Shown here one piece after another: positions 15,410 to 51,801 of a stretch of 64,000 nucleotides of DNA. The stretch lies in NCBI RefSeq assembly GCF_029961145.1, contig NZ_JASBRG010000007.1:972155-1036154 (forward strand), read 5' to 3'. Numbering within the stretch: position 1 is the stretch's first letter; each line of letters begins with the position of its first letter. The DNA comes from Pinibacter soli. Lineage in GTDB: Bacteria; Bacteroidota; Bacteroidia; Chitinophagales; Chitinophagaceae. The translations under genes were made by a program, and so were the position numbers. Below the pieces are notes generated by a model. The model made no database searches. It had not been told where the DNA came from and worked only from the letters and a program-made list of their open reading frames with translations.

Positions 15410-15982
15410 TTAAAACTCAAACTTTGCAACACTTTCGGGCTTATTCAATCTCGTACTTTTACGTGTACCATTTACGGTTACGTGCATAATGCTGATCTGT
15501 GAATCGAATTCTTCAAACAGCAGCGTATTCTTTATTTCCAGTTGCTTTACAGAAGGCACATTGTTTACCTGAACATAGCACCATGCAGCTTCGCTTTCTT
15601 TTTCAAAACCTACAAACTGTAGCACTACCGGCTTTCCATCTACTTTTAGTTGCAAGTGACTGTTTATATAATCGCTGATCAGTTTATTCACCTTCGTTTT
15701 ATCCTTAATATTATTGAGGTCAACTTCTGTTTTTGTTACATCGCGTAGTGTTTTTTCGAAATCGTCGAGGAACATTTTACAACTAATCTCAAGCGTTTTA
15801 TCTTTCGGGTTATGGTTGATTTCCGTTACACTTATGTAAAAAGGATGGTTTGCGATTGGCTTTTCGGGACTTACGGTAACTTTTTTGATCCTTTGACCGG
15901 CTGCCTGCAAATCATTGCCAGCAACCGAACAAATAACAAATAAACACAATAAGAACTGCCATTTATAAAATCTATTCGCCAT
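15410..15982 (-). CDS. DUF6702 family secreted protein
   Basis: 190 residues with an N-terminal signal segment (FYKWQFLLCLFVICSVAGNDLQAAG). The mature part begins with HPFYISVTEINHNPKDKTLEISCKMFLDDFEKTLRD, the typical DUF6702 N-terminus. It continues with alternating strands to the C-terminal KSTRLNKPESVAKFEF. Function is unknown. It is transcribed divergently from a HupE/UreJ-like gene and an M1 metallopeptidase 51 and 779 bp away. This neighbourhood recurs in the phylum to my knowledge, suggesting a shared envelope function. Confidence 0.85.
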   Translation of the reverse strand: MANRFYKWQFLLCLFVICSVAGNDLQAAGQRIKKVTVSPEKPIANHPFYISVTEINHNPKDKTLEISCKMFLDDFEKTLRDVTKTEVDLNNIKDKTKVNKLISDYINSHLQLKVDGKPVVLQFVGFEKESEAAWCYVQVNNVPSVKQLEIKNTLLFEEFDSQISIMHVTVNGTRKSTRLNKPESVAKFEF

Positions 15983-16032
15983 TTAAAAACTAATTTACGG
16001 GGTAACAAAAGTCTTGATTATTTTCAAATCTT

Positions 16033-16629
16033 ATGCTGGATTTTAATCTTTACTTTAAATTAGGCATTGACCACATTCTTACATGGGAGGCGATGGACCA
16101 CATATTGTTTGTTGCTGCTTTATGCCTCCGTTATACATGGAAAGACTGGCGCAAAGTAGCCGTTTTAGTTACAGCCTTTACCATCGGCCATTCCATCACT
16201 TTGGCATTGAGCACGTTAGGCATTCTCCACATGAATACAAAATGGATCGAATTTTTAATCCCCATAACCATCATTTGTACAGCCATTAATAACCTGCTGC
16301 AAAAACCGGGCGCAACCAAAAAGAAACTGCCGCTCATTTACTTTTTTGCGCTGTTCTTTGGCATGATACACGGCATGGCTTATGCCACCACTCTGCTTTC
16401 ATTAGAGGGCACAGAAGGCCTTGTCGCACATTTGTTTGCCTTTAATCTTGGAATAGAAGTTGCGCAATTGCTGGTAGTGGCCGTGGTTTTGGCTCTTTCT
16501 CATTTAGTAGTTAACATTATCAAGCTGCCCGCTCAAAGATGGTTACAGATAATTTCTATAATAATATTGATTTTTTCATGTAAAATGGCATTTGAACGGC
16601 TGCCTGAATTATATTTGAAAGCCGCATAA
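16033..16629 (+). CDS. HupE/UreJ family membrane protein
   Basis: 198 residues with about six membrane segments. The motifs GIDHILTWEAMDHILFVAALC, AFTIGHSITLALSTLGI and FFALFFGMIHGMAYAT belong to the HupE/UreJ family. In hydrogenase and urease operons its members act as nickel or cobalt permeases. Conserved His and Asp in the first segment and HGxxxA in the middle are the presumed metal ligands. There is no urease or hydrogenase nearby, so the cargo is open. The M1 peptidase follows 131 bp downstream on the same strand. Confidence 0.85.
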   Translation: MLDFNLYFKLGIDHILTWEAMDHILFVAALCLRYTWKDWRKVAVLVTAFTIGHSITLALSTLGILHMNTKWIEFLIPITIICTAINNLLQKPGATKKKLPLIYFFALFFGMIHGMAYATTLLSLEGTEGLVAHLFAFNLGIEVAQLLVVAVVLALSHLVVNIIKLPAQRWLQIISIIILIFSCKMAFERLPELYLKAA

Positions 16630-19835: not shown

Positions 19836-19951
19836 TACCAATAGGTTTAGGATTGATTAAATTACCTTGACCGCTAAGGTAGCGCTCAAACGTTAAAAGG
19901 CAATCCCAAATTAATACTCTTCAATTTTTGAAATACTGTTGCATTTTTTAT

Positions 19952-19959
19952 TAGTTTTG
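19952..19959 (+). promoter_or_regulatory. Probable -7 box before the LKGPP-tailed protein
   Basis: TAGTTTTG matches TAnnTTTG. A TTTTTG word ends at 19930, 21 nt upstream, fitting the -33 element. The start codon lies only 7 nt after the box, so the leader would be very short or absent. Confidence 0.5.
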
Positions 19960-19966
19960 TTGCCAG

Positions 19967-20284
19967 ATGCGCAAATCCCTTATAAAAGTCATCACGGTTT
20001 TAATGCTTTTGGTGTTTACCCAAAAGATGGGATTGCGTTTGTGGCTACACAATTGGTATCATACTGAGCAGGCAAATGAAAAGAAGGACCCGCTTTCATC
20101 CGGCGAAGACAAATCCGTCAAGTGCGATTGTATTGACGACTTTTTAATGCCGCTTGATGAAACTCCTGTTTTTTCCCTGCATGTTCCTACACAGGAATTC
20201 AAAACAATCTTCTCTGTTTATAATTCACCTTTCTCATGCGCAGAAAAACTATTCTGCTCGCTGAAAGGTCCGCCAATGGCATAA
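19967..20284 (+). CDS. Small secreted protein with C-terminal LKGPP tail
   Basis: 105 residues. An N-terminal hydrophobic segment (MRKSLIKVITVLMLLVFTQ) is followed by LRLWLHNWYHTEQ, the CDCIDDFLMP motif with two Cys, and a C-terminus CSLKGPPMA. No named family is recalled. Similar small exported proteins ending in L(R/K)GPP occur beside outer-membrane transporters in Bacteroidota, and a second one heads the RND operon here (51424-51789). His and Cys residues suggest metal handling, which is inference. The TonB-dependent receptor starts 158 bp downstream on the same strand. Confidence 0.75.
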   Translation: MRKSLIKVITVLMLLVFTQKMGLRLWLHNWYHTEQANEKKDPLSSGEDKSVKCDCIDDFLMPLDETPVFSLHVPTQEFKTIFSVYNSPFSCAEKLFCSLKGPPMA

Positions 20285-20442
20285 CCCATCTTTCTCTGTA
20301 TTTGACAATTGATTGATTGATTGAGTTCGTCTCGGTCATTACTCATAATTCAATACGCATAACTCATTACTTTTTCCCTTGTGAAAACACCCATATGCTT
20401 CACATGCATTGGTGCATTTCATTAATCTCCATTTGATTTGGC

Positions 20443-22932
20443 ATGAAATCATTCTTTATACGACTTACTATACTGGTTGTTTCTATACATTCCTGCCAGT
20501 TAATTTCTGCGCAGAATAAGACCGGCAAAGCTCCGGGATCATTATCCGGCAATATATTTGAGAAGAAAACCAGCGCCCCTTTGCCCAAGGCAACGATCTA
20601 CATTCCTGATCTTCAAACGGGAACTGTGGCAGATGACAGTGGACACTATTCATTTAAGACACTTCCTCAAGGTACCTACCTCGTTGAGGTACGTTATATA
20701 GGATATAAGGCCCAAACAAGAAACATAACTGTAAATGGCGCCATACGCAAGCAGGACTTTGCCTTAACTGACGAAGTGGTGGAAGAAGGAACCGTGGTGA
20801 TCACGGGCACTTCGAAAGCTACGCAAATCAAGCGCAGCCCGGTTCCTATCGTTGCAGTAAGTCATACATACCTTACAACAAATCTGAGTTCAAATATCAT
20901 TGATGCTATCGCAAAAGTACCCGGTGTAAGTGCCCTTACTACGGGACCAAATGTTTCAAAACCTTTTATTCGCGGGTTGGGTTACAATAGAATTTTGACA
21001 TTGTTTGATGGTGTTCGACAGGAAGGTCAGCAGTGGGGCGATGAACATGGCATTGAAGTGGACCAATACGGCGTTGACAGGATTGAAGTGATCAAAGGCC
21101 CGGCCAGTTTAAGTTACGGCTCTGATGCATTGGCAGGTGTTGTAAACCTCATTCCTACTCCGCAGCCCCAAGACGGCAAAATAAAAGGCGAAGTACAGGC
21201 GGAGTATCAAACCAACAATGGGATGTTTGGAGGAACGGCAATGCTTTCCGGCAATAGAAACGGTTTCGAATGGATGGGGCGTGTTTCTCACAAAGAAGCC
21301 ACCAATTACAGAAACAAAATTGATGGCAGGGTTTTTAATACTGGGTTTAAAGAAACAGACGCAACCATTGCAATGGGCCTGCACGGCAAATGGGGCTACA
21401 CGCATTTGAACCTTTCTATGTTTGATGATCTGCAGGAAATTCCGGACGGCAGCCGCGATTCAGTAACAGGAAAGTTCACGAAACAAATTACCGAAGATGA
21501 TCTTTACCGGCCGATCGTTAGCGATGATGAATTAAAATCATATGCGATCACTCCATTGCACCAACATGTACAGCACTACAGAGGCTATTTGAACAACAAT
21601 TTCATTTTGGGCAATAATGGCAGACTTGGCGTTAACCTTGCCTTTCAGCGCAGCGTAAGAAGAGAGTTCAACCATCCCGAAGCTCCTTACCAGGACGTTG
21701 CGGGTTTGTACTTACAAATGAACACTTACTCATACGATGTAAAATATTACCTGCCCGAGATTGATGGTTGGAATTTTACTACAGGTGTGAATGGTATGTT
21801 TCAGCAAAATGACGTAACAAAAGGAACGGAGTTCATAATACCGTCTTATCATCAGTTTGATATAGGTCCGTTTGCCTTGATAAAGAAAACATTTAACAGG
21901 TTGGACATTGCAGGCGGTGTACGTTATGACAGCAGATCTTTTAACAATAGCGCATTGTATACTGGCACTGATCCTGTTTCCGGTTTTGAGAAGCCTGTAC
22001 ATGGCGCAGACACAGTTGGTGCGGACAATCCGTTTTACAATTACAAACATACGTTTACGGGCTTTTCAGGAAGCGTAGGCGCGACCTATAAAGTTTCAGA
22101 AAAATTTGCACTGAAAGGAAATATTTCAAGAGGTTACCGTGCACCAAACATTTCTGAAATTTCCGCCAACGGTGTGCATCCCGGAACGAATATTTACCAG
22201 GTGGGAAATAATCAGTTTAAACCAGAATTCTCTTTGCAGGAAGATCTTGGTCTTTCCTATACTTCAAAATATGTGATCATCAATTTCAGTGTATTTAACA
22301 ACACTATTTCTAATTACATTTTTAATCAGAAGCTTGCTGCAACCAATGGTGGAGACTCGCTTTTAAACGGCAATACTGTTTACAAATTTCAACAGGGAAA
22401 AGCCAATTTATATGGTGGAGAATTAAGTGTAGATTTCCATCCGATAAAACCTTTGCACTTCGAAAACAGTGTATCTGTTGTGTACGCCGATAACAAAAAC
22501 GTAAGCGGCGCTATGAAGACAGACAGCAACAGATACCTCCCGTTCGTTCCACCATTACATGGCATTTCTGAATTGCGCTATGATTTTGATGGGAAGGCTC
22601 ATCACATTGTTGATGGCTTTGCAAAAGTTCAATTAGCCTACTATGCGAAACAAAATCGTGTTTACCTTACCGACAATACAGAAAGCGCCACGCCAGGGTA
22701 TACACTGGTAAATGCCGGTGTTGGTGCGGGTTTCACTAATAAAAAAGGCAGAACACTGTTTAATGTGTATTTAATGGCAAACAACATTTTTGACGTTGCC
22801 TATTGGGATCATTTGAACAGGTTGAAATATTTTCTGTACTCCGATGCAGACACGAATCCAAATCATGGTATACATAACATGGGGAGGAATTTTTCATTTA
22901 AAGTTAATGTGCCGCTGGAGTGGAAGGACTGA
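20443..22932 (+). CDS. TonB-dependent outer-membrane receptor with carboxypeptidase-like N-terminal domain
   Basis: 829 residues. The signal peptide (MKSFFIRLTILVVSIHSCQLISAQ) precedes a CarboxypepD_reg-like domain (LSGNIFEKKTSAPLPKATIYIPDLQTGT...GHYSFKTLPQGTYLVEVRYIGY). The plug follows (ATQIKRSPVPIVAVSHTYLTTNLSSNIIDAIAKVPGVSALTTGPNVSKPFIRGLGYNRI is its core; key words VPGVS, RGLG, GPASLSYGSDALAGVVNLI). The beta-barrel ends in an aromatic-poor KVNVPLEWKD. It takes up a chelate or metal across the outer membrane using TonB energy. The cargo is not evident. The small LKGPP protein upstream is its likely operon partner. No SusD gene is present. Confidence 0.92.
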   Translation: MKSFFIRLTILVVSIHSCQLISAQNKTGKAPGSLSGNIFEKKTSAPLPKATIYIPDLQTGTVADDSGHYSFKTLPQGTYLVEVRYIGYKAQTRNITVNGAIRKQDFALTDEVVEEGTVVITGTSKATQIKRSPVPIVAVSHTYLTTNLSSNIIDAIAKVPGVSALTTGPNVSKPFIRGLGYNRILTLFDGVRQEGQQWGDEHGIEVDQYGVDRIEVIKGPASLSYGSDALAGVVNLIPTPQPQDGKIKGEVQAEYQTNNGMFGGTAMLSGNRNGFEWMGRVSHKEATNYRNKIDGRVFNTGFKETDATIAMGLHGKWGYTHLNLSMFDDLQEIPDGSRDSVTGKFTKQITEDDLYRPIVSDDELKSYAITPLHQHVQHYRGYLNNNFILGNNGRLGVNLAFQRSVRREFNHPEAPYQDVAGLYLQMNTYSYDVKYYLPEIDGWNFTTGVNGMFQQNDVTKGTEFIIPSYHQFDIGPFALIKKTFNRLDIAGGVRYDSRSFNNSALYTGTDPVSGFEKPVHGADTVGADNPFYNYKHTFTGFSGSVGATYKVSEKFALKGNISRGYRAPNISEISANGVHPGTNIYQVGNNQFKPEFSLQEDLGLSYTSKYVIINFSVFNNTISNYIFNQKLAATNGGDSLLNGNTVYKFQQGKANLYGGELSVDFHPIKPLHFENSVSVVYADNKNVSGAMKTDSNRYLPFVPPLHGISELRYDFDGKAHHIVDGFAKVQLAYYAKQNRVYLTDNTESATPGYTLVNAGVGAGFTNKKGRTLFNVYLMANNIFDVAYWDHLNRLKYFLYSDADTNPNHGIHNMGRNFSFKVNVPLEWKD

Positions 22933-40309: not shown

Positions 40310-42361
40310 TCAATTCCTCTCAATTCCTATCTCCGCTCCCACCCGATAGTATCTTCCCGGCATTGGAAAATTCAGCACCACATCATAGTATTGATTGAAC
40401 ACATTGTTTACTTCAAGCAATAACTTGGCGTTGATATGTTTGCAGGAAAACTTTTTCGATAATGAGAGATCGTGTGTATACCACGGCTGTACATAGTTGA
40501 CAGGAATATTCATTTTCTGGCTGTATCGCTCACCGGAATAGATGAAGCTGTAGTTGAAGCACCATGTTTTCCACAGCATGTTTACAATTGCAGAACCACT
40601 GTTTAAAGGCACGTACGGAATTTGCTGATTGTAATTGTCCGCTCCTTGTGTAATATCAACTGCATGCTGGTAAGTGTATTTCACCGTAGTGCTAATAACC
40701 AATTGCTGAAAACATTTCCACGATGTTTCAAGACTTGCATCAATGCCATGCACTTCCACTTTGCCAAGATTCAGCATCATCCAGCGATAGAGATTGGTAG
40801 TGGGCACGGCTACAATTTTATCTGTAACCGTGTTGTAATAGCCGTCTACCTGCAGCTGTATAAAACCAGGATTTGTGTTTGTAGCCTTCGCCCAGGTGAA
40901 ACCCAGGTCATACTGCTTTGTATACTCCGGTCGCAATGATGTGTTACCAATAAAAGTGTAGTACAGATCATTGAAGGTGGGAAGCCTGAATATACTTTTG
41001 TAAAATCCGCGAACACGCAAATTGCTTTTTGTAAAAGGCTTCCACGATGCTGATAAAAATGGTGTTAGCTTTTGTTTGTTACCTGCCGACTCATACTCTC
41101 TTACCTTATCCCAAACCATCGTCTGCAAAGCCCCGCCCTGCACAATAACATTATTAAAATGCAAGTCACTCGTCAGAGAAACCAAGCCCTGGTACCTTGT
41201 CGGATATGCGAAACGATATAGGTTAGCATCTAGTTTGTTCCACTGAAAATCGCCGGATATCGCTACGCTCCACCACTTCGTAATCCTGTACTGATTAGCG
41301 GAGGAAAAATAAATTTCCTGTTGCTTGTATCGATTATCGAGATAGCCAGCTGTTGTTACAAAATCCGGATCGAGATAGCGCATGTAATCATTGGCATACT
41401 TAACATTGAACAGGTAGTTGAATCGCTTGCTTATACTGTTGCCATAAGATGCCTGTAGAAAAACATTGCGATCCCATTGCCTTTGGTCACGCGAAAATTT
41501 ATTCGCAACCACCGCTCCGGGCAAGCCACGTGCTGCATCATAGAAATAAGCTTTGACGCGCCACTTACTGCTATCTTTAAGCATTCCGTAGAAACCAGCC
41601 TCTGCTCTCCACGCATTGATATCGGCATTTTCGCGATTCGCAGTAGTGTCATACGTACCGTTTGTGTAGCGGAATTTATATTTGCCGTCTGCATTGATCC
41701 ATTCTCCGCTAAAAGAAGAAGAAACATTCTTGCTGATCTTTTGCTCCCACAAAACCGATGGATCTAAGAGCCCGAACGAGCCTGTTTTGATCGCTGCTCT
41801 TACATGATAATTTGCTTTACCAAATTCAGGCGTGCGTGATTGCAGATAAATGGAAGCAGCTGATGCAAAAGCCTTGGCCGGTTGGAATATCTCACTCTTT
41901 TGCGCATTGTACAAGGAAATCTCTTCCATATTATCCAAAGAAAATTTACCAAGATCAACCTGTCCGTTTTGCGCATTCCCCAACTGCACGCCATCATAAA
42001 AAACGCCGGTATGGTTGCTTCCCATGCTACGCGTATCAACAGTTTTTAATCCTCCAATGCCGCCATAGTCTTTCAACTGTACACCGGAAAAATAACGGAT
42101 GGCGTCTGCTACCGACAAACTATTCATGTTCTGCAAAGCTTCTCCTTTCAATGACTGCACAGGTGTTACAGATTTGTTTTGCGATAGCATTTTGGACCTA
42201 ACCGTTACTTCTTCCAGTACACGAACCTTTACCGAATCTTGCGAATGTCGCGTGGTTTCATTTTGCTTCTGCGCAAATGCGCTGCGCTGACTTGCTGCGA
42301 ACAACAATATCATTGACAACACATTTGCCACAAAAGCCTTATGGTTTTTCATCAAGAACAT
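40310..42361 (-). CDS. BtuB-like TonB-dependent receptor
   Basis: 683 residues; an alternative ATG at 42352 gives MKNHKAFVANVLSM. The signal peptide ends near SAFAQ. A TonB-box-like EEVTVRS is followed by the plug (SLSVADAIRYFSGVQLKDYGGIGGLKTVDTR core: VADAIRYFSG, GGIGGLKT, GVFYDGVQL). A 22-strand barrel ends RYYRVGAEIGIERN. There is no carboxypeptidase-like domain, as expected for BtuB types. The cobalamin riboswitch upstream and the adjacent propeller lipoproteins make vitamin B12 the likely cargo. It starts 5 nt after the stop of the preceding gene. Confidence 0.9.
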   Translation of the reverse strand: MFLMKNHKAFVANVLSMILLFAASQRSAFAQKQNETTRHSQDSVKVRVLEEVTVRSKMLSQNKSVTPVQSLKGEALQNMNSLSVADAIRYFSGVQLKDYGGIGGLKTVDTRSMGSNHTGVFYDGVQLGNAQNGQVDLGKFSLDNMEEISLYNAQKSEIFQPAKAFASAASIYLQSRTPEFGKANYHVRAAIKTGSFGLLDPSVLWEQKISKNVSSSFSGEWINADGKYKFRYTNGTYDTTANRENADINAWRAEAGFYGMLKDSSKWRVKAYFYDAARGLPGAVVANKFSRDQRQWDRNVFLQASYGNSISKRFNYLFNVKYANDYMRYLDPDFVTTAGYLDNRYKQQEIYFSSANQYRITKWWSVAISGDFQWNKLDANLYRFAYPTRYQGLVSLTSDLHFNNVIVQGGALQTMVWDKVREYESAGNKQKLTPFLSASWKPFTKSNLRVRGFYKSIFRLPTFNDLYYTFIGNTSLRPEYTKQYDLGFTWAKATNTNPGFIQLQVDGYYNTVTDKIVAVPTTNLYRWMMLNLGKVEVHGIDASLETSWKCFQQLVISTTVKYTYQHAVDITQGADNYNQQIPYVPLNSGSAIVNMLWKTWCFNYSFIYSGERYSQKMNIPVNYVQPWYTHDLSLSKKFSCKHINAKLLLEVNNVFNQYYDVVLNFPMPGRYYRVGAEIGIERN

Positions 42362-42366
42362 TACTA

Positions 42367-43701
42367 TTAGTTGAATAGCATTAAACCAGGAAAATAGAAA
42401 TATTCATAAGAGACTGTCTTATCTAAATTTCCTGTTGACGCATTGTAGAAGTAAAGGCTGTTGTATTTGTAATTTTGCCCATAGCCGGATTGTACTGAGG
42501 TAACCACAACCTGGTTGGTCAGCGGATTGTAGCGTGTTGCGCATCCATACAACTCTTTGCCGGTTGGCAGGGTAGCAAATGGATTTTGCAGAGAGGCTGT
42601 GTTGCCAATAACATATTTGTAAAAGCTTGTACCGCTAGAACCCCATGACTTTTCTTTTGCTATAAAAATTGCATTCTCCGTTGCCGAGAAACTCAGCGAG
42701 CCCGATGTCCACGCACCCCACGTGTTGGCAGCAGAAAAAGGCAATGTAACTTTTGTAGTATCAAGTGTTGAAGGATTGATTTTCACTAAAGATGTTCCTC
42801 CGGCAACCCACACGCTGCCATCACTGCTGGTGGTAAAGCCTTCCGTTAATCCACTGATTTTTTTAGCAATGCTGTAATCGCTTTTGTTAAGAACTACAGC
42901 GCCATCTGTTTGCGTCAGTGCAAAAATGTAATTGCCCTGCATGATAATGTTACCCACCTGTCCGCTAACACTTGACAGCTTTGTACCAATAGCCAATGTT
43001 TGCAGATTCAAAGGATAGATGCCGCTTTGTGTAGTGATCAAACCGTTCGCGCTGTCGATGCCAAGAAATGCACGGCCATTAGCCGGCAATGATTCTATGC
43101 GCCCCATTTCTACCAACGACTTTGAGTCTGTAACCACCAATGGACCTTGCTTTGAAACCAGGTATAAACGACCATTGAAAACAGCACCAAATTCTGTTGT
43201 TGTACCTAGTTGCTTACCAGGATTTTCTTTTGCGTAAACATTCTGCTCGATCGTGTCACTACCATGACGATAAAAATTAACGCTGCCGTTTTCATGACCC
43301 AACCAACCTTCATTTACGATCAGAATGCCGTTTTCATATTTACCCAATACATAAATCTGATAATTAGCGGAGGCTTGTCCTGTGGAATTGCTTGCTGTAA
43401 AATTGATGAGATATTTACCTGCAGCATCAGGTTTGAAAGATAATGTAGAATCAGTGCCTGCCTGTGTTCCATTTACTGTCCATGAATAACTTGTAGTTGT
43501 TCTGTCGAGTAGTTTTGGATATAACAAAAGGCTACTACCGATAGTAATGGTGTCTTTGCCATCTTTGATGTTGTTGTCGACGATCTTCGGCAAAGGCTGT
43601 TTGTAATCGTTCTTATTACAAGCAACGATTGAAAACATAATCACTGACAAAGGCAATACAATACGCTTGCCCAATGACCTTAAAGTGTACATAGTGTGCA
43701 T
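42367..43701 (-). CDS. DUF5074-type beta-propeller lipoprotein, first gene of the cobalamin operon
   Basis: About 444 residues from ATG at 43701 or 43692 (MYTLRSLGKRIVLPLSVIMFSIVACNKND), with lipobox IVAC. A PKD/Ig-like module (LLYPKLLDRTTTSYSWTVNG...AAGKYLINFTASNSTGQA) precedes a propeller with blades such as GILIVNEGWLGHENGSVNFYRHG, FGAVFNGRLYLVSKQGPLVV and IIMQGNYIFALTQTDGAVVL. The NEG..G.(E)NGS..F opening parallels BtuG and DUF5074 proteins. It is probably a surface-exposed cobalamin-binding partner of the receptor. The earlier ATG at 43800 would remove the signal-peptide position and is rejected. Confidence 0.83.
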   Translation of the reverse strand: MHTMYTLRSLGKRIVLPLSVIMFSIVACNKNDYKQPLPKIVDNNIKDGKDTITIGSSLLLYPKLLDRTTTSYSWTVNGTQAGTDSTLSFKPDAAGKYLINFTASNSTGQASANYQIYVLGKYENGILIVNEGWLGHENGSVNFYRHGSDTIEQNVYAKENPGKQLGTTTEFGAVFNGRLYLVSKQGPLVVTDSKSLVEMGRIESLPANGRAFLGIDSANGLITTQSGIYPLNLQTLAIGTKLSSVSGQVGNIIMQGNYIFALTQTDGAVVLNKSDYSIAKKISGLTEGFTTSSDGSVWVAGGTSLVKINPSTLDTTKVTLPFSAANTWGAWTSGSLSFSATENAIFIAKEKSWGSSGTSFYKYVIGNTASLQNPFATLPTGKELYGCATRYNPLTNQVVVTSVQSGYGQNYKYNSLYFYNASTGNLDKTVSYEYFYFPGLMLFN

Positions 43702-43919
43702 TTTATTTGTTTCAAATTTTAATTGATACAAGATGGCACACTGATTTACATCTGTACTGTTACATATCCTGCGAAACATTTTTCGCAAAACACATAGCAA
43801 TACACTTAACTAACCCAATGGTTAATTACAGATGTAGCTGCAAGGAAAACTTAATGAATAAGCATTTTTGTTTGCTAATCATTCACGCTTCTATCCCCGA
43901 AAGCAATGAATCAGTATGA
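43702..43919 (-). other. Leader between cobalamin riboswitch and first gene
   Basis: About 220 nt without a gene. It contains a TGCGAAA-CATT-TTTCGCA hairpin at 43770-43787 and a small TTACATCTGTA / TTACAGATGTA inverted pair. The hairpin has no T run, so it is not an obvious terminator. How the riboswitch controls expression is not visible. Confidence 0.5.
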
Positions 43920-45691: not shown

Positions 45692-46771
45692 CTATTTTCC
45701 TGCTACTTCGCCCTCCGGTATTTCATCGCTTGCGTTGGTGATAACAACATCTCCTTTTTGCAGGTTTCCAAATACTTCTTCGCTGTCGGCAGATTGATTT
45801 CCTGTGGTAACATCCACTTTGGAAATGACGTTATTTTTCAACACCAGTACGTATTTGCGCTCTGTAGAAATAACCACAGCGCTCTTCGGTACTTTGAAAG
45901 CCTGCAGGCTACCATTGGCACGCAGCAACACATCCGCATACATCCCAGGCGCTAAAACACCATCTTTATTCACCACATCGATCTCTACTTTTTCTGTTCT
46001 ATATTGCGTATTCACATCGCTTGCTCTTCTCACAATTTTTCCCGTTAGCTTTTTGCCATTTAAGGCATTTACATAAAATGAGATCGTGTCGTTGATCTTC
46101 ATTTGGGTAGAAAATAATTCAGGCACACTCACCTGCAACCTTAAATGCTCAACCTGCTTTAACTCCAGCATAGCGGTATTTTTTTCAGCGGCACTTACCA
46201 ATGCACCCGGATGCACATTGCGCTCGGTGATCACACCGGTAAAAGGTGCTGTAACGTTCAGATAGGCCAGCATTTGTTCCTGCCTCTGCCAATTCGCTTT
46301 TTCGGCGTTGCAAAGTGAACTGTCCGCCTCCATCTTCGCCCTGGCGGTAGAGAGATCGAGCGGAGAAATGGCACCTGCAGTACGCGATGCCTCCAGCAAG
46401 CGCATGTAATTTTCTTTATCAATTGCAAAACCAGACTTGCTTTTTGCGTAGTTTTCTTTTGCTTGTAAAGATGCATCGATCAATTCCGGCGCTTCGAGTG
46501 TCATTAGCAATTGGCCCTGCTTCACCTTGCTGCCAATATCTACCAGCACGTTTTTCACGTATCCGTTTACTTTTGGAAAAATGCTCACTTCCTGGTAAGC
46601 TGCCAGCTGCGCGGGCAATTTTACCGTAGATGAAATGCCACCCTGCTCAACGGTTGCGGTTGCGTACACAGGCGTACTTTCCTTTCTCTCGTTTTTCTTT
46701 TCCTGGTTTTGCGCAGTGGAGCAAGCTGTAAAAACTATGACAGGAAATATATAGATGATTACTCTTTTCAT
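45692..46771 (-). CDS. RND efflux periplasmic adaptor (membrane fusion protein)
   Basis: About 359 residues from ATG at 46771, with lipoprotein signal MKRVIIYIFPVIVFTACSTAQ. Domains in order: beta-barrel and lipoyl halves (QLAAYQEVSIFPKVNGYVKNVLVDIGSKVKQGQLLMTLE), a helical hairpin (ELIDASLQAKENYAKSKSGF ... QRQEQMLAYLNV), then VTAPFTGVITERNVHPGALVS and LAPGMYADVLLRAN. It links the inner-membrane pump to the TolC-like channel. Its ATG overlaps the pump stop by four bases (ATGA), so translation is coupled. Gene order is channel, pump, adaptor, unlike the common adaptor-first order. Confidence 0.92.
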   Translation of the reverse strand: MKRVIIYIFPVIVFTACSTAQNQEKKNERKESTPVYATATVEQGGISSTVKLPAQLAAYQEVSIFPKVNGYVKNVLVDIGSKVKQGQLLMTLEAPELIDASLQAKENYAKSKSGFAIDKENYMRLLEASRTAGAISPLDLSTARAKMEADSSLCNAEKANWQRQEQMLAYLNVTAPFTGVITERNVHPGALVSAAEKNTAMLELKQVEHLRLQVSVPELFSTQMKINDTISFYVNALNGKKLTGKIVRRASDVNTQYRTEKVEIDVVNKDGVLAPGMYADVLLRANGSLQAFKVPKSAVVISTERKYVLVLKNNVISKVDVTTGNQSADSEEVFGNLQKGDVVITNASDEIPEGEVAGK

Positions 46772-49700
46772 TTGTTTGAATTTTCTGGTAATAATGAAGG
46801 GGATTCGAATGTTTTTTTCTGTTGTATCCAACCGTACACAAGAGGCACGATCAGTAATGCAGCAAATGTTGACGCGATCAATCCGCCGATCACTGCACGC
46901 CCAAGTGGCGCTGACTGATCACCTGCTTCACCGAGACCACTGGCCATTGGAATCATACCGGCGATCATGGCGAGGCTCGTCATTAAGATGGGACGCAAAC
47001 GTATGCTAGCCGCAACAGACGCTGCTTTGAATGCATCCTTGTACTCAAGTCGCAAGGATTCTGCATTGGTTACGATCAGGATCGCATTTGCAACGGACAC
47101 GCCTGTTGACATGATGATGCCCATGTAAGATTGCAGATTGAGTGTTGCACCAGTGGCGAGCAACAACAACATAGAACCTAACAATACAGCTGGCACCGTT
47201 GACAATACAGCAACAGACAATCCAAATGATTGATAGTTGGCTGCAAGCAACAGCAGGATAACGATAATCGCAGCAATCAACCCGCTTTGCAATGAACCAA
47301 GCGTTTCAACGAGCAATGAAGACATCCCTTTTATTTCTGTCACCAAACCAACGGGCGGTTTGCCTGCCTCGTCAATTGCTTTTTGCACTGCCGCAGTTGC
47401 GGTACCAAGATCTTTATTAAAAATATTGGCGCTGATGGTAACAAATCTTCGAGGCCCGCTCCTGTCGTATTCGCCTGGCACCTTCGTGTTGTTAAGCATT
47501 GCAACATCTGACAGCACAGGTCTTGGTTGGCCCTTGACCAATGGAATGGCCTGCATTTGTTCCATCGAGTTCATCATGTATTCGGGAACCTGCACTTGTG
47601 TTTGGTAGGTGTATGAACTGTTCTCATCCAACCATAAATTCTTGTTGGTGAAGCGACTTGAAGATGTTGCGTCGGTGATGCTTCTTGTAACGTTGTCGAT
47701 AGTCAGTCCCATTTGCGCCAGCTTTAAACGATCCACCGTTATATTGACAGAAGGAAAATCAAGTGGTTGCTGAATTTGCACATCACGCAGATAACTAATC
47801 GATTTCAGGTTGCTCACAATCATATCGGCATAAGATCTGATGTCTTTCATATTTTTCCCTGCAACCCTTACTTCTATTGGCGTTGAAGCTCCTTGCGCCA
47901 TAATCTTTTCTGTTAGCTCAATTGGTTCGAAGGAAATGCGCAGCTGCGGATACTTCGCGGCGATTTCTTTGCGTAGCGTTTCTTTCAACTGATCCATTTT
48001 TACCTTGTAATCTTCATCAAGATTTATTTGTATCACGGCCTCATGCGTTCCGGCATTAAACACATACAGGTTACTCGTACCAAAACTACTCGGTACCAAA
48101 CCAACGAATGCAGAAGAAATGTCCACGTGATTATCCACTGTTTTATTAATAATGTTCAGTACATCTTTTGTCGTTCGTTCCGTTACTTCCAATCTTGTAC
48201 CATCTGGTTGTTTAATACGCAATTGCAACTGGCCGGAATTTGTTTTAGGCAAAAGATCTTTACCAATAACAAAATAACAAACACCAGCGGCACCCAACAC
48301 CAGCAAGACATACAGCGACACGATCAGCTTTCTGCTTTTCATCCACTCATCAAGTTTGGCTTGCAGCAACATTTTCAATCGTTGAAAAAATCCATTTTCA
48401 TGACCATGTTTTGCATCCTGCAAATTGTGTTCATTCACTTCATTTACTTCTGCAGCATTCAAAGCCAGACCGGCATGTGCATGATTAGTTGAATGATGAT
48501 ATTGAAACATCTCGGCTTTCAACAACCAGTTACTAATCACAGGAACTAATGTTTGCGCAGCTATGAAGGAAACGATCATTGCAAATGCAATGGATAATGA
48601 AAGCGGCAAAAACATTGCTTTTGGCACGCCAGACATCACAAATGCCGGTGCGAACACCGCGAGAATACACAACAAAATAAGCATCAGCGGAAGCGTAATT
48701 TCGGTGCACGCGTCATAGATTGCCTGCCGTTTTGATTTGCCCATTTCCAGGTGTTGGTGAATGTTTTCAATCGTCACCGTCGCTTGGTCTACGAGAATAC
48801 CAATTGCAAGTGACAGACCACTCAGCGTCATGATATTTATGGTTTGTCCGGATAATTTCAAAAAGAAAACGGCACTTAATATTGCCACTGGAATGGTAAC
48901 GATCACTACGAAACTGCTTCGCCAATCGCGCAGGAACAGCAGCACCATCAAACCCGTTAGAATGGCGCCCAGTATACCTTCCGTCATGAGGCTTTTAGCT
49001 GAGCTCATTACAAACACCGATTGATCAAATGCATAAGTGATCTTCACATCGTCCGGCAAAAGGCTTTGCATTTCCGGAATTTTCTTCTTCAATGTTTGTA
49101 CGACATCCCAGGTGGATGCATCTGCAGTTTTTACAACAGGAATATACACGGAGCGTTTGCCATTCACCAACGCATACGAAACAGTAACATCGGCGGCGTC
49201 TGCAACGGACGCCACATCTCTTACAAACAGTGTGGATGCTCCATTGCTTTTAAGCGGGATGTCTTCAAATGCCTGCACTTTGTTTTCCAATGAATTCACG
49301 GACGTGACAAACATGGTGCTGTCAATGCGGATATTTCCCGAAGGGCTGATTGCATTATTCTTCGCGATGGCTTCCACCACTTCGTCCGGCGACATATTTG
49401 CTGTGCGCAACTTTTTCGGATCAACATTGATCACAACTGTTCTTGCATTGGACCCAAAAGGCGGAGCGGATGACATACCCGGAACCGTAGCAAACATTGG
49501 TCTTACACGTGTCAACGCAAGATCAAATATTTCTTTCAGTGATCTTGTTTTGCTGCTGAACACCAACTCTCCTACCGGTAACGAAGATGCATCGAAGCGA
49601 CTCACCTGCGGAGGCAACGCTCCAGGTGGAAAGAATGCCTGTGTCCTGCTCACCTGCAAAGCCACTTGCGCAGAGGCTTCGGCCATATCCGTTCCTTCAT

Positions 49701-49980
49701 AAAAACTCAGCTTAATCAATGAAAGTCCTTGAATGCTTTTGCTTTCAATATTTTTTACACCATTGATATACAGAAACTGATCTTGCATACGTGTGGCAAA
49801 AAATCCTTCCATTTGTTTTGCCGACATACCACCATATTGCTCAATTACATAAATGGTAGGTGAATTGAGTTTTGGAAAAATATCAATGGGAATTGTGCGA
49901 ACGGCTAGTACAGAAAATAATAAAAGCCCAATAAACAAAACCAATATGGTAATTGGTTTTTTCAAAGCCATTTTTACCAT
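46768..49980 (-). CDS. RND family efflux permease with His-rich loop
   Basis: 1070 residues, full RND length. TM1 is followed by VRTIPIDIFPKLNSPTIYV. The proton-relay segment reads LAIGILVDQATVTIENIH: Asp398 is present, but the second Asp of AcrB (DD) is Gln399. Two large periplasmic domains and the second TM half (NYQSFGLSVAVLSTVPAVLLGS) follow. Residues about 494-528 form a cytoplasmic insert with nine His (HHSTNHAHAG ... HGHENG), which could bind metal. Substrate is not settled: metal or organic. The channel gene ends 6 nt upstream. Confidence 0.93.
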   Translation of the reverse strand: MVKMALKKPITILVLFIGLLLFSVLAVRTIPIDIFPKLNSPTIYVIEQYGGMSAKQMEGFFATRMQDQFLYINGVKNIESKSIQGLSLIKLSFYEGTDMAEASAQVALQVSRTQAFFPPGALPPQVSRFDASSLPVGELVFSSKTRSLKEIFDLALTRVRPMFATVPGMSSAPPFGSNARTVVINVDPKKLRTANMSPDEVVEAIAKNNAISPSGNIRIDSTMFVTSVNSLENKVQAFEDIPLKSNGASTLFVRDVASVADAADVTVSYALVNGKRSVYIPVVKTADASTWDVVQTLKKKIPEMQSLLPDDVKITYAFDQSVFVMSSAKSLMTEGILGAILTGLMVLLFLRDWRSSFVVIVTIPVAILSAVFFLKLSGQTINIMTLSGLSLAIGILVDQATVTIENIHQHLEMGKSKRQAIYDACTEITLPLMLILLCILAVFAPAFVMSGVPKAMFLPLSLSIAFAMIVSFIAAQTLVPVISNWLLKAEMFQYHHSTNHAHAGLALNAAEVNEVNEHNLQDAKHGHENGFFQRLKMLLQAKLDEWMKSRKLIVSLYVLLVLGAAGVCYFVIGKDLLPKTNSGQLQLRIKQPDGTRLEVTERTTKDVLNIINKTVDNHVDISSAFVGLVPSSFGTSNLYVFNAGTHEAVIQINLDEDYKVKMDQLKETLRKEIAAKYPQLRISFEPIELTEKIMAQGASTPIEVRVAGKNMKDIRSYADMIVSNLKSISYLRDVQIQQPLDFPSVNITVDRLKLAQMGLTIDNVTRSITDATSSSRFTNKNLWLDENSSYTYQTQVQVPEYMMNSMEQMQAIPLVKGQPRPVLSDVAMLNNTKVPGEYDRSGPRRFVTISANIFNKDLGTATAAVQKAIDEAGKPPVGLVTEIKGMSSLLVETLGSLQSGLIAAIIVILLLLAANYQSFGLSVAVLSTVPAVLLGSMLLLLATGATLNLQSYMGIIMSTGVSVANAILIVTNAESLRLEYKDAFKAASVAASIRLRPILMTSLAMIAGMIPMASGLGEAGDQSAPLGRAVIGGLIASTFAALLIVPLVYGWIQQKKTFESPSLLPENSNK

Positions 49981-49986
49981 GGTTAA

Positions 49987-51384
49987 TTATTTTATAGATT
50001 GAATAAATTGATCAAGATTGCCTGTGGCTGCGGCTTTGTCGAGGTTTGCCAGCATCCAGTCGTTTAGCGTACGCACATAATCTGTCTGCGATCTGTACAA
50101 TACATACGATGCATTGGTGAGATCGATCAGATTGATGATGCCTGCCTTATACTGCGCTCTTTTTTGATTGTAAGTATCTCCTGATGACTTGATCTGGACA
50201 GGAATTTCCTGCAAATTTTTATTGGCTGTATTGATGGCGTCGTTTGCCTGTGCATTTGCATTTTGCAGTGCCAAACGTTGCTGCTGCAAAGCATAGTCGA
50301 TTGCCTGTGCGTTGTATTTGCTTACAGCTAGTTCATCTCTCTTGTGCACACCATTAAAAAGATCGTACGATAAAGTAAGACCGGCCATGTAATTGACACG
50401 CTGGTAACCCAAACCATAAGAGGGATCTGTTTTAAAATTACCGCTATAGTCAATGCCTGAGCCTCTTGCCCATGTGCTCGCAGACAGCAACACTTTCGGC
50501 ATGTAACTTTTTTTCACCAATACTTCTGTTGCATCGTAAACCTTCTTTTGCTTCTCGTAGTAGTCTGTGAGTGGATTTTGCGCACTGTCCGACTGCAGCA
50601 ATATAGCCTGCACCGATTGATTGTAATCGCTCTTTGCAGTCGTATCCACGCTCAGATTATATTGAGGTATACCGGTGAGATAAGATAACTGTTGCTGCAA
50701 TTGAAAAACCTGCCCGAGTGTTTGATTGTAGTTAATACGCGTTTTGGAAAGCTCAGCCAGCGCCATGGAAGAATCGGCGCCAGCTTTGATCCCGCTTCGG
50801 GTAACGGCCTGTATCACTTTATAAATTTCCTCGTTGCGCTTCACATTCTGCGCATCTACTTCAAGCTGAAACGTATTTTTTTTCAGGTCAAAATACAATT
50901 TTGCAATTTGCCATTTCAGGAGATAAATTTCTTTTTCAAGATCTGCATTGTTAACATCGGCATACATTTTTGCTTGCTCGACTTTTGCATTCTTCAATCC
51001 GAAATTGATCAGATTGTATTGACCATATAAAATGGCAATATTACCAAAAGCCGGCTGGTAATCATTGCTGCTTCTTATCCCGGAAGAGGTGGAAGGAATG
51101 ATACCAAAGGACCAGTATGAGCCTGGCACTCCGTTATCGGTGCCCAGAGTCAGCTCATCGGCAACAACCGCCGACGGTAAAAAATTATGGCGAACATTAT
51201 CCACCTGCGCATCTGCACTTTTAACAAGTGCCCTTTTTTGATCAAGTACAGGCAAATGATGCGTTGCAGAATCAATTAAACTTTGCAGGGACACAGATTG
51301 CATCTGCGCCAAAGACAACAAAGGACTTATGCACACAAGAATGTACGCAGTCATCTTTGCCGCTTTACTTCGTAAAACAAGCAT
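49987..51384 (-). CDS. TolC family outer-membrane efflux channel
   Basis: 465 residues, with a signal segment around MTAYILVCISPLLSLAQ. The two homologous halves of the TolC fold are visible as long helices (SLQSLIDSATHHLPVLDQKRALVKSADAQVDNVRHNFLP and LALQNANAQANDAINTANKNLQEIPVQIKSSG, each described here only in part). Proline/strand segments such as LLSASTWARGSGIDYSGNF lie between them. It forms the exit duct for the RND pump encoded directly downstream, with a 6-nt gap. It lies 39 bp after the small LRGPP-tailed protein. Confidence 0.9.
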   Translation of the reverse strand: MLVLRSKAAKMTAYILVCISPLLSLAQMQSVSLQSLIDSATHHLPVLDQKRALVKSADAQVDNVRHNFLPSAVVADELTLGTDNGVPGSYWSFGIIPSTSSGIRSSNDYQPAFGNIAILYGQYNLINFGLKNAKVEQAKMYADVNNADLEKEIYLLKWQIAKLYFDLKKNTFQLEVDAQNVKRNEEIYKVIQAVTRSGIKAGADSSMALAELSKTRINYNQTLGQVFQLQQQLSYLTGIPQYNLSVDTTAKSDYNQSVQAILLQSDSAQNPLTDYYEKQKKVYDATEVLVKKSYMPKVLLSASTWARGSGIDYSGNFKTDPSYGLGYQRVNYMAGLTLSYDLFNGVHKRDELAVSKYNAQAIDYALQQQRLALQNANAQANDAINTANKNLQEIPVQIKSSGDTYNQKRAQYKAGIINLIDLTNASYVLYRSQTDYVRTLNDWMLANLDKAAATGNLDQFIQSIK

Positions 51385-51423: not shown

Positions 51424-51789
51424 TTAATCAAAAGCGGGTGGGCCCCGTAACGATAAACAATAAGGATAATTGACGGGAAGATCAAAGAAGAATTGCTGCC
51501 AATCTTTTTCAATTAAGCAAAATGGCTTTTCAACTTCAACTGTTAAAGGAAGAATGGCAATTAAATCACCTGCCTGGTATCGCTTGTTAAGCTTTGTCAG
51601 CGCCTTTTTTTCTTTTCCTTTTTTAGAAATATTAAAACTGTGTGATTGTTTTGCGGATGATAATGTTGGATAATCATTATATGCACAAGCGATAAAACTT
51701 GCCTGTGCCTGTACAAAATAGAATATGCTGAAAACGAGCAGTAACAGCACTTTGAATGGAGTCCTATGGGTAAATATTCTATTTAGCAC
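51424..51789 (-). CDS. Small secreted protein with C-terminal LRGPP tail, first gene of the RND operon
   Basis: 121 residues from a GTG at 51789. The N-terminus FKVLLLLVFSIFYFVQAQA is a signal peptide. The mature part is Lys-rich in the middle (SKKGKEKKALTKLNKRYQAGD) and ends YPYCLSLRGPPAFD. The final motif matches the LKGPP tail of the protein at 19967-20284. A TAATTTTG box lies exactly 4 nt before the GTG, which supports this start and a leaderless message. The role is unknown. The position at the head of an efflux operon suggests a sensor or accessory of transport. Confidence 0.75.
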   Translation of the reverse strand: MLNRIFTHRTPFKVLLLLVFSIFYFVQAQASFIACAYNDYPTLSSAKQSHSFNISKKGKEKKALTKLNKRYQAGDLIAILPLTVEVEKPFCLIEKDWQQFFFDLPVNYPYCLSLRGPPAFD

Positions 51790-51793
51790 GGGC

Positions 51794-51801
51794 CAAAATT
51801 A
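51794..51801 (-). promoter_or_regulatory. -7 box abutting the start of the RND operon
   Basis: TAATTTTG on the minus strand matches TAnnTTTG and is followed by GCCC and then the GTG start. The spacing is the same as at ispH and cvfB. Confidence 0.5.

Follow-up and report, generated by a model that had tools for sequence, protein, structure and literature searches.

The window, a 64,000-nucleotide stretch of the Pinibacter soli genome, contains two small genes, uORF-A and uORF-B, whose products P0001 and P0002 are likely to be translation-arrest peptides of the RAPP/RGPP class, which would act as on-ribosome sensors switching the transporter operons behind them. The genes themselves, their common tail and its spacing, their neighbours, the operator and the selection acting on them are all observed, and it is these that we describe here, together with the families to which the two uORFs belong.

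Two small genes and their relatives

uORF-A (19967..20284, plus strand) encodes the 105-residue P0001, which has an N-terminal hydrophobic export signal, two putative metal ligands, H28 and H32 (HNWYH, codons at 20048..20062, plus strand), a putative metal-sensing motif, C53-x-C55 (20123..20131, plus strand), and, 44 residues after the latter, the arrest-type motif K100-G-P-P103 (20264..20275, plus strand) within the C-terminus SLKGPPMA; both the histidines and the cysteines are invariant in alignment A1. A spacer of 158 nt (20285..20442, plus strand), where control would be exerted, separates it from the gene of a TonB-dependent receptor (TBDT; 20443..22932, plus strand; Pfam CarboxypepD_reg_2, plug and barrel). 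uORF-B (51424..51789, minus strand) starts with GTG and encodes the 121-residue P0002, with an N-terminal hydrophobic export signal, a conserved L67-N-K-R70 motif at the sensor position (51580..51591, minus strand; alignment A2) and, 44 residues later, the arrest motif R115-G-P-P118 (51436..51447, minus strand) within the C-terminus SLRGPPAFD. It is followed on the minus strand, after a gap of 39 nt, by genes for a TolC-type outer membrane efflux protein (49987..51384; Pfam OEP), an RND permease of the AcrB/AcrD/AcrF family (46768..49980; Pfam ACR_tran) and an RND periplasmic adaptor or membrane-fusion protein (45692..46831; Pfam HlyD_D23, and TIGR01730 above its cut-off). The first-pass annotation had pointed out these two tails, one before a TonB-dependent receptor and one at the head of an RND efflux operon, and its description holds for both, as does its remark that the two proteins otherwise differ; a profile-profile comparison aligns only the last ~25 columns and nothing else, and common ancestry of the two is rejected because the tail alone aligns.

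No Pfam or NCBIfam family was found for either P0001 or P0002. Purifying selection acts on both uORFs, with dN/dS values among three Pinibacter genomes of 0.15–0.19 for P0001 and 0.07–0.15 for P0002, and P0001 is 88–89% identical in Pinibacter aurantiacus MAH-26 and Chitinophagaceae bacterium 26-R-25. By a scan confined to L/F-x-(G/A)-P-P DNA patterns, which misses tails with another residue before the Arg, the whole 5.9 Mb genome has 20 matches to (L/F)-x-G-P-P, and only those in P0001 and P0002 lie in frames of at least 60 aa that end no more than 10 codons past the motif. The corresponding APP pattern has 45 matches genome-wide, two of which are near the end of frames of at least 60 codons; these two are weak candidates and show no visible export segment.

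Protein and profile searches yielded 44 loci for the family of P0001 (family A) and 27 for that of P0002 (family B). All but one of the 71 are within Chitinophagaceae, and outside the genus most members are 25–45% identical to the window copy. The residues that are invariant in the alignments are H28, H32, C53, C55, P62 and both tail prolines in family A, and F23, V26-Q27, L67-(N)-K69-R70 and LRGPP in family B. An export-type hydrophobic segment, taken as a mean KD of at least 1.8 over 15 aa, is present in 43 of 43 A loci and 26 of 27 B loci (69/70 overall). We note that one locus in another family of the same phylum (L146, in G635) matches family A weakly (E 0.004); its uORF is rich in His and without CxC, ends SLRAPP and is followed by a lipoprotein-like gene and a TBDT gene, and it is likely to be an analogous uORF outside Chitinophagaceae. 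At a further locus (L111, G145:C46) a second arrest-type uORF of 116 aa, ending GLRGPPAHSALM, stands in tandem before the family A uORF, 784-436 nt before the end of the latter, and this operon may have two sensors in series.

Neighbouring genes were not used in collecting the loci. All 44 family A uORFs are directly upstream, on the same strand, of a TBDT gene (42 loci) or of genes for an outer-membrane protein and ZnuA, joined by ZnuB if the contig is long enough (L121 and L132), with other small envelope genes coming first or the TBDT start being ambiguous in a few of the 42. In family B the uORF lies directly upstream on the same strand at 25 of 27 loci, where it heads an OEP-RND-adaptor operon. 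The constant link to outer-membrane transport operons, proposed earlier from the window, is thus borne out in both families. The window has two other regions to mention. Upstream of uORF-A, at 15410-16629, genes for a DUF6702 protein and a divergent HupE/UreJ-like protein lie beside an M1-type peptidase gene, and are possibly another metal-related cluster; at 40310-43800 on the minus strand there is another TBDT gene, preceded by one for a DUF5074/PKD-domain protein, and this is a different kind of TBDT operon, at which no RGPP uORF was noted.

The tail motif and its distance from the sensor

A tetrapeptide of the form [RK][GA]PP is found 2-8 residues from the stop codon at 70 of the 71 loci, and the stricter R[GA]PP at 65 of them, although these counts are not fully independent, as the first homologue retrieval included the tail. 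Other members continue to detect 43 of 44 A uORFs and 24 of 27 B uORFs as homologues when the tail is removed, and the tail is therefore not only a search artefact. The family A tails comprise 27 with RGPP, 11 with RAPP, four with KGPP, one with KAPP and one with QGPP; those of family B are RGPP in 26 and RAPP in one. Both RAPP and RGPP are reported to arrest bacterial ribosomes when the two prolines occupy the P and A sites, and changing the Ala of RAPP to Gly keeps or strengthens the arrest, RGPP being the strongest (PMC12992588). The same source lists RGPP among the most avoided tetrapeptides of bacterial proteomes and describes short signal-bearing uORFs of TBDTs as a RAPP/RGPP class in Gram-negatives (PMC12992588). 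The interchange of Gly and Ala in the A and B tails is as this published arrest work predicts.

Variation at the first position of the motif is a different matter. Arg is described as irreplaceable in ApcA, ApdA, ApdP and SecM, and in ApcA, ApdA and ApdP reporter output rose with each substitution of the Arg (PMC12992588). Lys nonetheless occupies this position at five of the 44 A loci, in three genera and with Arg relatives alongside in two of them, and Gln does so at one locus; in the Lys-bearing uORFs the rest of the protein is intact. In P0001 and its genus the Arg is replaced by Lys, with LKGPP, CxC and HxxxH kept across three Pinibacter genomes, and P0002 has kept the Arg. If the arrest class is defined by a short ORF with R-[AG]-P-P close to its C-terminus, then P0002 belongs to it strictly and P0001 as a Lys variant. 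Because its KGPP departs from the Arg of the class, P0001 is arrest-like and not a proven member, and our confidence in the arrest reading is accordingly higher for P0002 than for P0001. For the Lys variants in general, either the ribosomes accept Lys, or the arrest is weaker, or it is lost.

The distance between the tail and the conserved motif upstream of it is much more constant than the sequence between them. From CxC to the arrest motif there are 44, 45 and 46 residues in 29, nine and two of 40 A loci respectively, and from LNKR to the motif there are 44 in 16 of 22 B loci, with a range of 42-45. The linker itself is poorly conserved and variable in sequence in both families, and upstream of the sensor the spacer ranges from 16 to 24 residues in family A, and is mostly 37 to 47, with two much shorter, in family B. 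Family B has no Cys motif and no obvious metal ligands, and we regard LNKR as its putative sensor by position only. The ribosomal exit tunnel is some forty-odd residues deep, so that with a spacing of ~44 residues the sensor would sit just outside the tunnel at arrest. No internal evidence speaks more strongly for a nascent-chain mechanism than the occurrence of this same distance with two unrelated sensors. A close precedent is CruR, in which the 45 residues from CXXC to RAPP are conserved to within one or two residues in over 2000 proteins, and in which adding five residues impairs copper control (PMC9426467).

Operator, promoter and the zinc link of family A

The promoter of uORF-A contains a palindrome of the Fur-family type, TTTGAAATACTGTTGCATT (19927..19945, unstranded), which is a probable Zur box. 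In family A as a whole the promoter palindrome has the consensus TTTGCAACA-N-TGTTGCAAA and is near the same position relative to the start in most loci; a score of at least 15/19 is reached by 30 of 44 A promoters but by only one of 27 B promoters. Only one Fur-family gene exists in the genome; it follows an SCO1 gene in an operon whose promoter has the palindrome CTTGCAACTCTGTTGCAAG. In most relatives examined the box is likewise found before the SCO1-Fur operon, with scores that are hardly or never reached in the background B loci. The operator common to the family A promoters and this operon is a putative Fur/Zur box. We also note that a MerC gene is divergent from the SCO1-Fur operon (L215/L232; C6 of the P. 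soli genome, around 110378-111478), with the shared palindrome between them; this is probably the autoregulated Zur locus of Chitinophagaceae.

Several features connect family A to zinc. The best solved relatives of the Fur protein are zinc regulators (FurB/Zur), and the closest solved structure to the window TBDT is ZnuD (E 1.2e-18). We infer from the solved Zur/FurB relatives that the single Fur-type regulator is Zur-like, and regard the TBDT as probably ZnuD-like and a zinc receptor, both assignments resting on similarity that is below curated cut-offs. Genes for ZnuA and ZnuB are present in the A operons of L132 and L137, one for ZnuA at L121, where the contig ends early, and genes for a ZigA-like GTPase and a Fur protein in the A operons of L109 and L136. 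Because of the shared operator, the Zur-like regulator, the ZnuA, ZnuB and ZigA-like genes and the ZnuD-like TBDT, zinc is the likely ligand of family A, as judged from genomic context.

Promoter elements lie unusually close to both uORFs, and the earlier observation of -7 boxes 4-7 nt before the start codons is confirmed for each and proves to be conserved across loci. The box TAGTTTTG (19952..19959, plus strand) is 7 nt before the ATG of uORF-A, and TAATTTTG (51794..51801, minus strand) is 4 nt before the GTG of uORF-B. A TAnnTTTG box ending 3-9 nt before the start is present at 17 of 43 A loci (shuffle mean 0.4) and nine of 27 B loci (shuffle mean 0.24). Since the box is so near the start codon, the uORF mRNAs of both families are probably leaderless or nearly so.

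The step between the uORF and its transporter genes is less well marked. Folding of the RNA gave no consistent signal (median z about 0) for a structure that hides the downstream start unless the uORF end is covered by a stalled ribosome, and a switch in which the uORF end sequesters that start is rejected for want of a consistent effect in this test. Intrinsic terminators number three across 58 spacers, close to what shuffling yields, and attenuation by such terminators is likewise rejected, there being no excess over shuffle. C exceeds G in both uORFs and spacers, as would suit Rho, but the third codon positions of the uORFs show no such bias, which in the coding part therefore follows amino-acid composition. 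Rho-dependent attenuation as in CruR would be our guess, and our own tests speak neither for nor against it.

From the analogy with CruR and with ApdA/ApdP we infer stalling, sensing and a direction of control, and the following sequence of events may be proposed. The promoter would begin the mRNA at or beside the uORF start codon, and the N-terminal signal of the nascent uORF protein would engage the export machinery. The C-terminal R/K-G-P-P would then halt the ribosome a few codons short of the stop, with the sensor ~44 residues upstream, just outside the tunnel, deciding whether the stall persists; this sensor would be CxC, with HxxxH further out, in family A, and LNKR[FY] in family B. The stall or its release would set expression of the downstream transporter genes. 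In family A, zinc sensing would add a post-initiation layer to Zur-type repression of the ZnuD-like TBDT operon, and in family B the output would be the TolC-RND-MFP efflux pump.

Alternative readings and known systems

The first-pass annotation took the tail to be a short functional or sorting signal, and of these the functional part stands whereas the sorting part gives way to the arrest motif, which fits better. If the exported proteins were periplasmic accessory factors and their L(R/K)GPP a signal for sorting or interaction that an envelope partner recognises, this would agree with the export signals, the constant transporter link and the Lys allowed in some members, and the conserved metal-type H28, H32 and CxC could make a zinc carrier. 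We nevertheless consider this very unlikely and reject a sorting tag as the main reading. The same tail is present in two otherwise unrelated proteins that serve different machines, and its distance to the C-terminus ranges from 2 to 8 residues, so that it does not depend on a free C-terminus; it varies just as an arrest motif permits, with G and A interchanging and Arg and PP nearly fixed; the ~44-residue distance to the sensor, held over a variable linker in both families, would be unexpected of a sorting tag; and the tail matches the published arrest motif of signal-bearing TBDT uORFs (PMC9426467, PMC12992588). It could also be argued, since there are just two such proteins in the genome, that two unrelated short proteins share a C-terminal tetrapeptide by chance, but in many genera each uORF is kept together with its tail and its neighbours, which leaves this a negligible prospect, and it is rejected.

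There is more to be said for arrest peptides that monitor Sec/translocon function or envelope biogenesis in the manner of SecM, and not a metal or drug, the transporters being mere output. An export signal together with an arrest motif is the architecture of SecM and ApdP (PMC10987492), and family B is without obvious metal ligands; however, the invariant CxC and HxxxH of family A and its zinc-type operon genes under a Fur-type box, and the fact that the genes adjoining the uORFs are those of transporters and not sec genes, make this explanation unlikely. The Lys variant of Pinibacter might alternatively have lost arrest, leaving P0001 as a translation-coupling or mRNA-protecting leader or a small exported metal-binding protein, and all Arg substitutions did abolish or weaken arrest in the published reporters (PMC12992588). 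Against this, three Pinibacter genomes retain LKGPP, CxC and HxxxH at dN/dS values of 0.15–0.19, and Lys is also found in two further genera that have Arg relatives alongside; we therefore see loss of arrest as rather unlikely.

Translational arrest by the uORF products, which is the reading we prefer, has several published parallels. CruR (Bp2923; DUF2946, PF11162) is the copper-responsive uORF of the TBDT gene bfrG in Bordetella pertussis, where RAPP mutants lose downstream expression and a CXXC mutant loses copper control (PMC9426467), and its arrest has been shown in vitro (PMC12992588). Family A resembles it in being a short export-signal protein that heads a TBDT operon, in having a Cys motif at a similar distance before the C-terminal motif (~45 residues to RAPP in CruR, 44-46 for CxC), and in its spacer, which is 162 nt in CruR and 158 nt at P0001. 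It differs in that no member of A1 (24 sequences), or of A2 (11), matches DUF2946 (PF11162) at E up to 1, in having CxC and HxxxH and not CXXC, in its zinc/Zur context as opposed to copper, in its Bacteroidota host and in the dominance of RGPP; moreover, Rho attenuation has been demonstrated for CruR and would be a guess for the Pinibacter uORFs. The RAPP/RGPP uORFs of Fujiwara et al. 2025 (PMC12992588) share the C-terminal RGPP/RAPP and the small exported product, and TBDT genes are among the downstream classes listed for Gram-negatives. ApdA/ApdP and SecM (PMC10951233, PMC10987492) also combine a signal sequence with an R-A/G-P-P or RAGP core near the C-terminus, but they are upstream of sec/yidC genes, whereas the target of family A is a transporter and its proteins have metal-type ligands held at a constant spacing. 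CutF of Rhodobacter capsulatus is similar in that a nascent exported protein controls a downstream metal gene by translation, and is set apart from families A and B by its described poly-proline end and copper oxidase target (PMC9973294). CC2720 (DUF2946), a small predicted periplasmic or membrane protein, is, like P0002, first in an RND operon, the Zur-activated czrCBA/zntA operon of Caulobacter (PMC4176598); unlike this metal-type system with its Zur activation, family B has no DUF2946, Zur box or Cys motif.

The RAPP/RGPP uORF class is thus known, and such uORFs before TBDTs have already been reported in bulk. The main text of PMC12992588 makes no mention of RND/TolC operons, KGPP/KAPP variants or a zinc/Zur link, and neither a zinc-linked case nor an RGPP family linked to RND genes turned up in the literature searched; as far as that literature shows, the zinc-linked and RND-linked families, the 44-residue ruler that they share and the Lys variants are undescribed. 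We tentatively suggest, as a fuller account that is possible but well short of assured, that zinc bound at CxC/HxxxH alters the R/K-G-P-P arrest and so sets a Zur-repressed zinc-uptake operon, that Bacteroidota ribosomes accept Lys in the motif, that family B combines the 44-residue ruler with a non-metal LNKR sensor to act on an RND pump, and that the class as a whole is a modular ruler with an exchangeable sensor. Both families predict a common geometry, with the sensor 44 residues before the arrest motif. They also predict three rules, namely that zinc would be sensed on the ribosome, that an exported nascent chain would control an efflux pump, and that the motif would tolerate Lys at a position for which Arg had been taken to be indispensable.
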